Positions 1,651-53,134 of a stretch of DNA of 64,000 nucleotides are shown piece after piece. Origin of the DNA: Poronia punctata (lineage: Eukaryota; Ascomycota; Sordariomycetes; Xylariales; Xylariaceae); assembly GCA_022579005.1 (NCBI GenBank), contig MU401488.1:62001-126000 (forward strand), written 5' to 3'. Positions within the stretch are counted from its first letter, which is position 1; every line of letters begins with the position of its first letter. The notes beneath the pieces were generated by a model. The model was not told the DNA's origin. It saw only the letters and a list, made by a program, of their open reading frames with translations, and did no database searches. A program made the translations under genes and the position numbers.

Positions 1651-3894
1651 TTAAGAAGTCGGATTCGTAACAGAAGACCCAGTAGCCCGGGGCAAGTCAG
1701 GACATCCGATCAGACAAGTCTCGAGACAAGTGGCGATAGCTACGAAGTCAATCCCTTTGATACACTTGTTAGTGCATCCACACGGGACAGTCGGGATGGA
1801 TGTAGGAGTAGTAGGTACCTGACGCTTATCGAATATTCCCGTGCCAGATTCGAAGGCAGACTTGCAAGCAGACTTGCAGCTAAACGAACCCTGCGAGACA
1901 CCAAACACGATCCCGGCGTTCTGGAACCGGCCCTCGCATCCGTAAACGCAGGCATCGTAGCCGCTCGCGCCGCTGCCGATGGCGGGGACGTCGGGTGATA
2001 CTTGACGTTTCTCGACAGTTTCTTCCGTATTAGGGGTGGAGCGGCCGGAAATGATTCCAACGCCCATGCTGGAGAATTGCGCGCATGATTCCTTGCAGGC
2101 GGTCGAGCCGGACGAGACGCCTAGTAGGAACCCGGTTTCCGAGTATCGGCCGTTGCAGCTCGATAGGCAGGCATCGTAGGCCTCTGCGCCGGTGAAGATG
2201 GAAGGACCGCTCTGGAGAGGAGCGGGTCTGGAGGCGCGCCCCTCGACGACGACGTGATCCTTCTTGTCTAGGATGCTGGTGTCGAAACCATAGGCTGAGG
2301 CGCAGCCCGCCTCGCAACTTCCTCTACCCTGGGAGACTGTGAAAACGATGTCGGCGCTCTGGTAGCGACCCTTGCAGCCGGAGAGACAGGCTTCGTAACC
2401 ACCTGCGCCGGTACCGACGGCGGGGACGGCGGGGAGGTCGAGGGGGTTGGCTAGACGGGCGTCATCGACGGCGCTGTCACGCTTGTCCAGGATGCCGGTG
2501 CCGAAGCTGGAGCCGCTGGCGCATGCTGCCTCACAGTCATACTTGCCCTGGGAGACCTCGAAACCGATGTCGGCGACTTGTTGCTTGCCCTTGCAGGCAC
2601 TGACGCAACCTGCGTAGTCCGAGGCGCCGGTGCCGACGGCAGGGATGCCCGTGTCTACGGGGAGGACGGCTTTCTTGTCGTGTTTCATGTTCATGCGGGA
2701 CGGGCTATGAGCGAGACGGCCGATGCTGGGGGTTGTGGCGTCGCAAGCGGCTGGGGCTGGGGCGGCGGCGGCCACGACTGGGACCACGGCGGCATTTCGG
2801 ATGCCGAAGCTCTCGCCCGCGGCGCTAGCGCAAGATGTGTAGCACTGGGCCTTGCAGTTGGAGACGTTGATGTCGGCGACCCGGCACTTGTTGGAGCAGT
2901 ACTGGGTGCATTGTTCGGCTTCTACGGCCGAGCCGGTTACGGAGGGGGCGGCCACGGGAAGGATTGAGGGGGTCACCGTCGTGGTGATGAAGGAGACGAC
3001 GGGGGCCTGGGCTGTCGTCGGGACCGCCACGGGGGTGAGGATAGTGGGGACGGCAGCTGGTAGCGATGGTACTACGGAAGGCAGCTCGACAGGGAGAGAC
3101 GGGACTGCGGCAGGAAGAGATGGGATTGCGGCAGGAAGCGATGGGACTGCGGCAGGAAGAGATGGGATTGCAGCGGGGAGGGATGGGACTACGGCAGGTA
3201 GAGATGGCACTGCGGCAGGTAGGGAGGGAACTGCAGCAGGTAGAGATGGCACTGCGGCAGGAAGGGAAGGGACCGCGGCAGGTAGGGAAGGGACCGCGGC
3301 AGGTAGGGAAGGGACCGCGGCAGGAAGGGATGGCACTGCTGCGGCCAGTGATGGGACCACAGATTGGACTGTTGGGACCACTGATTGCACTACTGGGACA
3401 GCCGATGCAACTGATGGGACGACGGATGGTACAGCAGCAAGAGGCGTTGCCGGAATGACTGGGAGGATCTGTGGTGCTGCTGCCACTGGTACGATTTGCG
3501 GGGCGCTGACAGCATAGACTGAACAACGTATAGTCAGTATTCTGTGTTTGGCCAGAAGATCTTTTGTGCCCGGTTGGATGTAGAACTGTGGAAGAGGAGG
3601 TATCATATCAGACAAGAATCTACTTACTCCCCGGAACCTGACGGCGCTCCATCATCTCTTCTTCCATCTTGGCAGCCTCAACGGTCGCCACCGGCTCGTG
3701 TTCAGGCCATACATGCGGTGTGGCACTGTGGTGCATGACACCGGCTGCTGTCTCCCCTTTCATCCTGACGGTTCACATAACAAGTCAGTATCACGTGGGT
3801 AAGGTGTCTATATCGGGTGCGAAGTGCTTGCTTACATGATGGGTTTAGCCATGATGCCGGGGATGAGCCCGGCCAGGATGATGTTGGTCAACAT
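1651..3894 (-). CDS. Secreted Kex2-type precursor with VPSLPAA repeats and CX3C-X19-CX3C cysteine modules
   Basis: Three exons: 3894-3836, 3764-3628 and 3518-1651, giving 687 aa. Introns have GTAAGC/CAG and GTAAGT/CAG borders, the second with a clean CTGAC branch site. The start is placed at 3894 because the first 18 residues (MLTNIILAGLIPGIMAKP) form a short signal peptide; an upstream in-frame ATG would bury it. Exon 2 ends in a dibasic site (ERR-QVPG). Then come about 13-14 tandem heptapeptides of VPSLPAA type. After these come a Cys-rich module, four modules of about 50 residues each with CX3C-X19-CX3C (spacing identical in all four), and a C-terminal Cys cluster. Modules end in FGTGILDKR, FDTSILDKK, VEKR and GIFDKR, which look like Kex2 sites. 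It should enter the secretory pathway and may be cut into several Cys-rich peptides. I recognise no named family. Confidence 0.8.
3053..3360 (-). repeat. 21-bp tandem repeat coding for VPSLPAA heptapeptides
   Basis: About 14 imperfect 21-bp units lie inside exon 3 of the precursor gene. Variation is mostly silent or V/I at position 1, with A/V or V/E changes near the end of a unit. Copy number is likely to vary between strains. Confidence 0.85.
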
Positions 3895-50963: not shown

Positions 50964-51321
50964 TTAGTATCTATACAAAATACTCGAACCCACAGAAGCC
51001 GAAGCCGAAGAAGGCGTCTTCTCACCACCATTCTTGTCACCATATCTCCACCCGAAGCTTTCCCCTGATACTATGGGAGGTAGGACAGGAGGGTCGGGTT
51101 TGTTATCATCATTATGATTATTATTATTTGTCGAAGACGAAGTACTATTACTTCTTCTTCCTTTTTTGTTGTTGTTGTTGTTGTTGTTATTACTGTTGCG
51201 TCCTAGAGATAATAGACGACGACGACCTCCTAGGATGGGAGATTCTGATGATGATGAGCGAGGACGGTTTTTTGGGGAGAGTGTGGGTGTGGAGGGGAGA
51301 GTTTGATTATTATTGTTGTTT

Positions 51322-51353
<32 letters not shown>

Positions 51354-53134
51354 AAGTAGTAAACCAACATGTGATTGTTGTTGTTGTTGTTGTCGTTGTT
51401 GTTGTTGACGTGGTGGTGTAGGAGGTAATGGCATACTAGGTGGACCACCTACCGGTGGTTGGAAGGAAGTTGATATTTTTCGACGATGCCAGGCTCGGTC
51501 TCCTAGGGGGTTTGATATTTTTGCTGTTGATGTGGGTGGGGGTGGAGGAGGGGGGATAATGAAATTGAAAGTAGAAGGGGAAGGGGAAAGGGAAGAGGAG
51601 GAGGATATTTGACGTTTGTGTATTACGGGGGTGGACGTGGTGGGAAAGTGAGTATTGTTGTTGTTGTGGTTGGTAGTGATTGGGCTGGTTGTTGTTGTTG
51701 TTGCTCCTCCTCGCCATTGAACACCTGATGATGAACCGGAACCAGAACCGGATCGGACTTCTTCCATTAATGTGCCGTAGAGAAGACTATCTCTGTTATC
51801 TCTCTCCCTGTTCTGTGACGTGCCTCTTTCCCATTCTTCGGAGGGGGGGTAAGTGTCTATTGTATATGCCGAGACGGCGGAACTGGAAAATGTTGTTGAG
51901 ACGGAGGAGGGGGTGTTTCGCGCGTGTAGTAGTGATCCTATCCCGTAGTATCTGCTATCGCCCGATTCTAAAGCGGGCGTAGTAGGGATTATGAGTCTGT
52001 CTTCGTCATCGTTTTCTTCGTCGGTCCTGCTCCTGGGGGGTTGTTGTTGTTGATGTTGTTGTTGTTTCTTTTCAGCGGGGATTATTACTGGGATGTTATC
52101 TGATGATATATTATGTATATCGTCGGAAGAAGTGACGAGGGGATGTGGTTTTCTCTCCAACATGGCTTTCACGTGTTGTTCTTGAATCTTCTTCTTCCGT
52201 CCATGGGCTCGACAACAGAGTGTTAATCCCGCTGCTAGCAAGGCTATTCCGGAGAAACTTCCTGCTATGGCGGCTACTGTTGATGTTCGGACTGGTTTTG
52301 ACGTTGCTTTTTCGTCATCTTCTGGGGAGCGGGCTATGTCTGTGTCTTCGTCTGTGCCGGATGATGCTGTAGTTGTTGCGATGGTCGTCGTCGTCGTTGT
52401 CGACTTCTTGCTTGGGGATGAAGATGAAGATGGCGATGACGATGATTTCTGGCTGTGGGGGACAGAGAGTAAGTTGTATACGGCTACTTTGTCTTGCCCG
52501 CCGCATGATTGGCGTCTATCCCCTGGACAGGGAGCTGTGCAGTTGTCGTTTGGTAGCTTTTGGGCATCTTGGGAGAGTTGTAGGGCGCATATACATTCTC
52601 TGTTCGGACATTTAGCTGACCGACAAGAACTTCTCATTCTCATAAACAGAAGAAGAAGAAGAAGAATATACAATGGCAAGGGAGTGAGCGAACATACATT
52701 CCATTCCTTAGTCCAGCATAGACATACGGCCAAGAACCATTACCCTGTGAACTACAGCCGTCTAAACATCCTTGTATGGTGAGCTTGTCCTTTGGCAGTC
52801 TCTCTTCACGATCGTCACCGACGAATACGTTGCCTCCCTTTTCCCCGTAGCATCCCAACAGCGCATATTCCGAGGTCTCGGGGAGCAGGGTCGGCTTATA
52901 CGCTATGGTGGTGGTGATGGTGATGGTGGCCGTCATAGTGGCCGTCTTCGTGGTGGTGGACGACGACGAAGACAAGGCCGGATCTGCCGTAGTAGGCGGT
53001 GACGGCGGCGGCGGCGGCGGCGGCACATCATCGCCGAGTGAGCCATAGAAAAGAAGTCCGCTCCATAGTAGTAGAACCGGTAGTAGGCAAAAACGTCTCA
53101 CCCTCAGATATGATGGGGAGGTCTGATGGGACAT
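50964..53134 (-). CDS. WSC-domain cell-wall sensor with a poly-Asn cytosolic tail
   Basis: Exons 53134-52698 and 52599-50964 give 690 aa. Donor is GTATGT. Of several acceptors I use the CAG at 52600-52602 because it alone joins GLRNG to IECICALQLS, the WSC core. An N-terminal signal anchor (RFCLLPVLLLWSGLLF) and a Pro/Thr-rich stretch come first. The WSC domain runs from YALLGCYGE through CLDGC, ECICA and CTAPCPGDRRQSCGG. A Ser/Thr-rich linker follows, then one membrane helix (VAAIAGSFSGIALLAAGLTL) with a basic stop. The cytosolic part is about 480 residues of low complexity, with poly-Gln, poly-Pro and runs of up to 11 Asn. Wsc proteins in yeast sense cell-wall stress and signal through Rho1. 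The same is inferred here. Confidence 0.87.
51160..51400 (-). repeat. GTT/TTG trinucleotide arrays coding poly-Asn and poly-Gln
   Basis: Several long runs of (TTG)n or (GTT)n on the plus strand encode Asn and Gln tracts on the minus strand in the sensor's tail. They are likely to vary in length between strains. Confidence 0.85.

Follow-up and report, generated by a model that had tools for sequence, protein, structure and literature searches.

We propose that a gene on the minus strand of the window, the 64,000-nucleotide stretch of Poronia punctata DNA analyzed here (contig MU401488.1, positions 62,001 to 126,000), probably encodes a precursor that kexin processes into helical-hairpin mini-proteins, much as plants do with their modular alpha-hairpinin precursors. 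The proposal is built on a cassette of diverged four-Cys modules, each closed at a fixed place by basic residues, in the window protein and in homologous proteins.

At least five relatives were found outside the window: P0001 of X. nigripes, P0002 of X. intraflava, P0004 of X. multiplex, P0005 of X. hypoxylon, and P0006, which carries no species name. The protein-collection searches scored approximately 8000 candidates richest in common short words, at certain lengths only; i.e., more relatives are possible. P0003, an incomplete prediction of the very gene in the window, was not counted as a relative. When three single-module queries were run against the fungus's own 45.05 Mb genome (E up to 0.001), they hit this gene only.

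The gene runs from 1651 to 3894, and the limits given in the initial annotation were correct. Its three exons (3894-3836, 3764-3628 and 3518-1651, with the stop codon at 1653-1651) are separated by two GT-AG introns and join into an uninterrupted frame of 687 residues, including 29 Cys. The first 19 residues of the window protein are identical to those of P0004 at 16 positions, and likewise in P0005, which supports the exon 1 call. A probable signal peptide, judged by eye, covers residues 1-16 (3847-3894), and a near-identical leader is found in P0004 and P0005. Across the six proteins inspected, a hydrophobic leader was seen by eye in these three gene models and was not seen in those of P0001, P0002 and P0006. 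The pro-segment (residues 17-61; 3641-3846, across intron 1) closes with ERR followed by Gln, a site common to the window protein, P0004 and P0005 and written ERR/Q here, the slash marking the putative cut. Three features were also noted in the window: a perfect GTCGT array of 5.4 copies at 1623-1649, just past the stop codon on the gene's strand; an adjoining plus-strand frame at 363-995, which resembles GDSL-type lipases/acylhydrolases (PF13472, E 3e-7; 31.5 bits, below the cut-off of 32.9); and a minus-strand frame of 559 residues at 50967-52643 with a partial WSC match under the cut-off.

The proline-rich region behind the pro-segment (residues 62-264; 2923-3640, across intron 2) is free of Cys and contains 23% Pro and 18% Ser+Thr. 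Within it lies the VPSLPAA heptad array (residues 120-221; 3052-3357). Counted as 13-14 repeats at first, a fair estimate, the array holds 12 heptads that fit [VI]PSLP[AV][AV] and two more that are degenerate (VPSLAAA and VPSLPVE). Pairwise differences among the 12 number 20, 11 and 245 at codon positions 1, 2 and 3, respectively, indicating that the heptads are a constrained coding repeat. A proline-rich region stands upstream of the modules in all six proteins (17-23% Pro, 16-24% Ser+Thr), with differing repeats. Such a stretch, rich in Ser and Thr and placed ahead of the modules, would suit a modular protein of the cell wall or cell surface that stays uncut, in which a proline-rich stalk carries a string of disulfide domains, the basic ends serve as linkers for charge or solubility, and kexin cuts at ERR/Q only. 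However, inspection of the window protein by eye showed no tail resembling that of a GPI-anchored protein, and the module ends described below bear on this reading further.

Behind the proline-rich region, the six-Cys module M0 (2815-2922; CX3CX3C-X9-CX3CX3C) is followed by four four-Cys modules of 55 residues each: M1 (2479-2643), M2 (2260-2424), M3 (2041-2205) and M4 (1822-1986). A Lys-Lys pair (residues 347-348; 2671-2676) lies between M0 and M1. Cys324 (2743-2745) stands alone in the same interval and would be unpaired if each module closes its own disulfides. The CX3C-X19-CX3C motifs begin at C370, 443, 516 and 589, an exact period of 73 residues, confirming the four modules with identical spacing that had been described. 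The modules had been given as approximately 50 residues ending at or near DKR, DKK, EKR and DKR. The DKR, DKK and final DKR ends stand, whereas the conserved unit measures 55 residues, with an 18-residue linker, and M3 ends in SGR at the homologous place. EKR is a separate site in the linker behind M3 (EKR/Q; Lys-Arg at residues 569-570, 2005-2010), its final residue 12 positions past the SGR arginine. Identity among the four modules is 36-62% at the amino-acid level and 51-65% at the nucleotide level, indicating that they are old copies; M3 is the most diverged. Behind the last Lys-Arg, a C-terminal piece (1654-1821) holds a six-Cys cluster with its Cys core at 1702-1782, for which no counterpart was found in the alignment of five homologues. 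Cys clusters had been noted on both sides of the modules, and both are present. The one in front is a six-Cys form of the module itself, whereas kinship of the one behind with M0 is only suggestive, with similar Cys spacing and a BLASTP E of 0.006 in a single comparison.

The same architecture recurs in the relatives. Each of the six proteins has a single six-Cys M0 with 4 to 7 four-Cys modules behind it, 29 of the latter in total; because these were located by the four-Cys pattern, the invariance of their Cys is by construction. The Cys spacing is X19 in 27 modules and X10 in two, module 2 of P0004 and of P0005, in which the loop is 9 residues shorter and all four Cys and the basic terminus are retained. 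The unit is accordingly 55 residues long, or 46 in the two loop-deleted modules; it opens with Pro in 28/29 and closes with a basic pair in 27/29, and Lys or Arg occurs three residues past Cys2 in 26/29. M0 has X9 spacing in the window protein and X11 in the others. The linkers between units (n = 23) range from 9 to 39 residues, while the module layout and the basic end stay fixed. All 22 Cys of P0004, P0005 and P0006 fall in modules, as do all but one in P0001 and P0002; in the window protein, the Cys outside modules are Cys324 and those of the C-terminal cluster, six in number. A tree of the modules (55 columns) had poor resolution, with 4 of 26 inner branches well supported. The modules of P0004 and P0005 paired by position, with three of four pairs well supported, and window modules 1, 2 and 4 were grouped without strong support. 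Module 3 took the longest branch (1.82), beside a P0002 module; it is also the window module that lacks a dibasic pair, and the EKR site lies in the linker behind it. As read from these sequences, the tree suggests positional inheritance combined with lineage-specific duplication.

The position of the basic site carries most of the argument. A dibasic pair stands exactly 12 residues past the last Cys in 27 of the 29 four-Cys modules, and P1 is basic in all 29; the modules are related copies, so these counts and those of site context below are not independent and we claim no probability from them. When the stretches behind the modules were shuffled (5000 trials), at most 6 pairs fell at any one offset. 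Both exceptions, SGR in window module 3 and PR then K in module 1 of P0004, retain the basic P1. The relatives thus keep dibasic sites in nearly all of their Cys modules, and the comparison did not yield the refutation proposed in the initial annotation, namely orthologues that have the modules without these sites. The weight comes from the homologues, since the window protein alone has 5 dibasic pairs in 348 residues, a number compatible with chance (2.5 on average in shuffles, P 0.09). A pair at +12 was absent from M0 in 6/6 proteins, P0004 and P0005 having RK three residues further on, and from the C-terminal cluster of the window protein.

The missing pair in M0 accords with an uncut protein, as does Lys-Lys at 13/29 module ends. 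On the other hand, the fixed basic P1, the hydrophobic P4 and the frequent acidic P1' exceed what a general need for charge would ask for, and the site keeps its position although the linkers vary in length. The coincidence of the unit end with the basic site, next to linkers of variable length, counts for cleavage at the module ends. We therefore regard an uncut protein as unlikely and continue with a processed precursor.

The context of the sites agrees in part with the Kex2 processing originally proposed. P5 is Ile or Val in 29/29 sites, P4 is hydrophobic in 27/29 (background 21%) and P1' is Asp or Glu in 18/29 (background 10%); Arg occupies P1 in 16 sites and Lys in 13, and P3 is Asp in 10. 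Kex2 is described as preferring an aliphatic P4, tolerating variation at P2, requiring an invariant Arg at P1 and disfavoring Asp at P3 (PMC8528282), and acidic residues are enriched at P1', P2' and P4' of kexin sites that are actually cut (PMC2515848). The P4 and P1' contexts thus argue for kexin, whereas a P1 Lys or a P3 Asp argues against full efficiency. Three sites of the window protein read RR/Q or KR/Q, among them the end of M4 (DKR/Q), and pyroglutamate-led peptides have been detected from a kexin-processed repeat protein of Coprinopsis (PMC9769878). The P_proprotein profile gave one genomic match above its cut-off, in a frame holding 4 stops, as introns would give, suggesting that the fungus probably encodes a kexin of its own.

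These preferences raise a reading that overlaps with ours: Arg ends may be cut and Lys-Lys ends left intact, yielding single modules and longer chains in a mix that depends on the species. Lys-Lys closes 8 of 12 modules in P0004, P0005 and P0006 vs 5 of 17 in the window protein, P0001 and P0002, a distribution that, together with the invariant Arg, speaks for such partial processing. However, KK is among the kexin sites admitted in published surveys (PMC7329392; PMC6339444, as a second choice; PMC9769878), and within a single protein some modules have Lys where their neighbors have Arg. We consider partial processing rather unlikely, though a little less so than the uncut protein, and prefer cleavage at all module ends. 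If so, the family would suit a test of the tolerance of fungal kexins for Lys-Lys.

Repeats between kexin-like sites are also a feature of dikaritin-like modified peptides made through the UstYa pathway, and the genome contains at least 27 matches to the UstYa family (PF11807). However, none among the 27 matches listed falls on the contig of this gene, and units of 55 Cys-rich residues are far from the quoted dikaritin cores of 8 to 14 residues. A dikaritin-like precursor is thus highly improbable, and we return to the mini-protein precursor.

Processing would begin with removal of the leader by signal peptidase. Kexin would then remove the pro-segment at ERR/Q and, judging from position and sequence context, cut after the basic residues at the end of every 55-residue module; a Kex1-type carboxypeptidase, as in the general pathway, would trim the basic residues. 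If all dibasic sites were used, the window protein would yield four mini-proteins, 59 to 83 residues long and each different in sequence; the predicted module-bearing pieces after trimming measure 62, 71, 83 and 59 residues. Two further products would be the proline-rich stalk, with the six-Cys M0 attached to it, and the C-terminal six-Cys peptide.

Each mini-protein may be a helical hairpin stapled by two disulfides. In alpha-hairpinins, the disulfides join Cys1 to Cys4 and Cys2 to Cys3, and the same pairing could apply here. The predicted 61-residue M4 piece (1822-2004) was modeled as two helices with one CX3C pair on each (mean pLDDT 55, pTM 0.37, low confidence). M0 also showed two helices in the model of the whole tail, which reached a mean pLDDT of 39.9 and a pTM of 0.19. 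The best Foldseek match had an E of only 5.1. Plant alpha-hairpinins were among the weak structural matches, and unrelated chains scored an equal Z. The helical hairpin proposed at the outset draws its support from the Cys spacing, a low-confidence model with two helices per module and weak fold matches.

The charge of the four window module pieces at pH 7 was -2.3 to -5.3, and that of the relatives' four-Cys pieces about -4 to +2.5, as computed on pieces cut at every dibasic lacking Pro behind, which splits two Cys regions of P0001 too. Because the window pieces are acidic, membrane-active cationic peptides are not our first guess. Instead, we infer extracellular mini-proteins with several targets; the hairpins may serve as stable extracellular binding proteins, in competition or in contact with a host, and antimicrobial and protease-inhibiting activities are also candidates.

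The initial annotation spoke of a new class of peptides. This was too strong, since kexin-processed repeat proteins (KEPs) already have a name as a class (Le Marquer 2019, Umemura 2020; PMC6339444, PMC7329392), and modular CX3C...CX3C hairpin precursors are known in plants (PMC7191063, PMC11591084). What looks new is the combination of a KEP-like precursor with CX3C hairpin modules in a fungus. Searches mostly outside the subscription journals found no publication that joins hairpinin with Kex2 and none recognized, by title and start of abstract or, for PMC8707630, by a passage of its text, as describing this precursor family. If the protein is cut as its sites suggest, fungi use the kexin route also for sets of folded, diverged disulfide mini-proteins.

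KEPs are defined by three or more repeats, each 8 to 100 residues long, between KR, KK, RK or RR (PMC7329392). By this repeat-and-site rule as written, and by it alone, the four homologous modules place the window protein among KEPs, with which it shares a probably secreted type of precursor and at least three repeats of under 100 residues between dibasic sites. It differs in its units, 55-residue Cys modules with the mutual identity given above, against the quoted dikaritin cores of 8, 13 and 14 residues; the surveys filtered repeats with an identity score of 0.6 on 40-residue seeds and with FIMO (PMC7329392, PMC6339444). The Rep1-type effectors of Ustilago likewise arise when Kex2 cleaves one repeat protein to give several peptides (PMC8528282). 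Their peptides are short, unlike the units here. We know of no counterpart of the disulfide modules in these effectors. Small Tim proteins carry twin CX3C motifs on a helical hairpin; however, they are mitochondrial and not secreted modular precursors. Two small Tim chains appeared as weak profile matches (E 0.24 and 0.54, not significant), and the module-only profile matched none among PDB chains.

The closest parallel is with plant alpha-hairpinins, which are sought by the 4C motif CX3C-X4-20-CX3C and the 6C motif CX3CX3C-X4-20-CX3CX3C (PMC11591084) and are released from precursors that string together as many as 12 modules (PMC7191063, PMC11591084) by plant proteases (PMC7191063). With X19 or X10 in the 29 four-Cys modules and X9 or X11 in M0, the fungal spacings all lie within X4-20, and the six proteins are modular precursors in the same sense. 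No sequence kinship with plant alpha-hairpinins was found: the module profile matched no PDB chain at E up to 10, and the protein-collection searches, which are word-based and can miss distant kin, gave the four Xylaria proteins and P0006; we therefore file the fungal protein as working like them and not as a member. It differs in its fungal origin, its kexin-like module ends, its long proline-rich stalk and, in the window, its acidic products. What it shares with MiAMP2, Tk-AMP-X, Sm-AMP-X and EcAMP is a probable signal peptide and a cassette of diverged CX3C...CX3C modules, in 4C and 6C forms, whose proteolytic release is predicted in the fungal protein. It is quite possible that Xylaria-type fungi independently reached the strategy of plant alpha-hairpinins, in which one gene encodes a secretory precursor with a cassette of diverged disulfide hairpins; here kexin would separate them at the site that forms part of each module end, and a single transcript would supply several related mini-proteins for separate targets. 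If true, the family would be a convergent parallel to the defense peptides of plant seeds.
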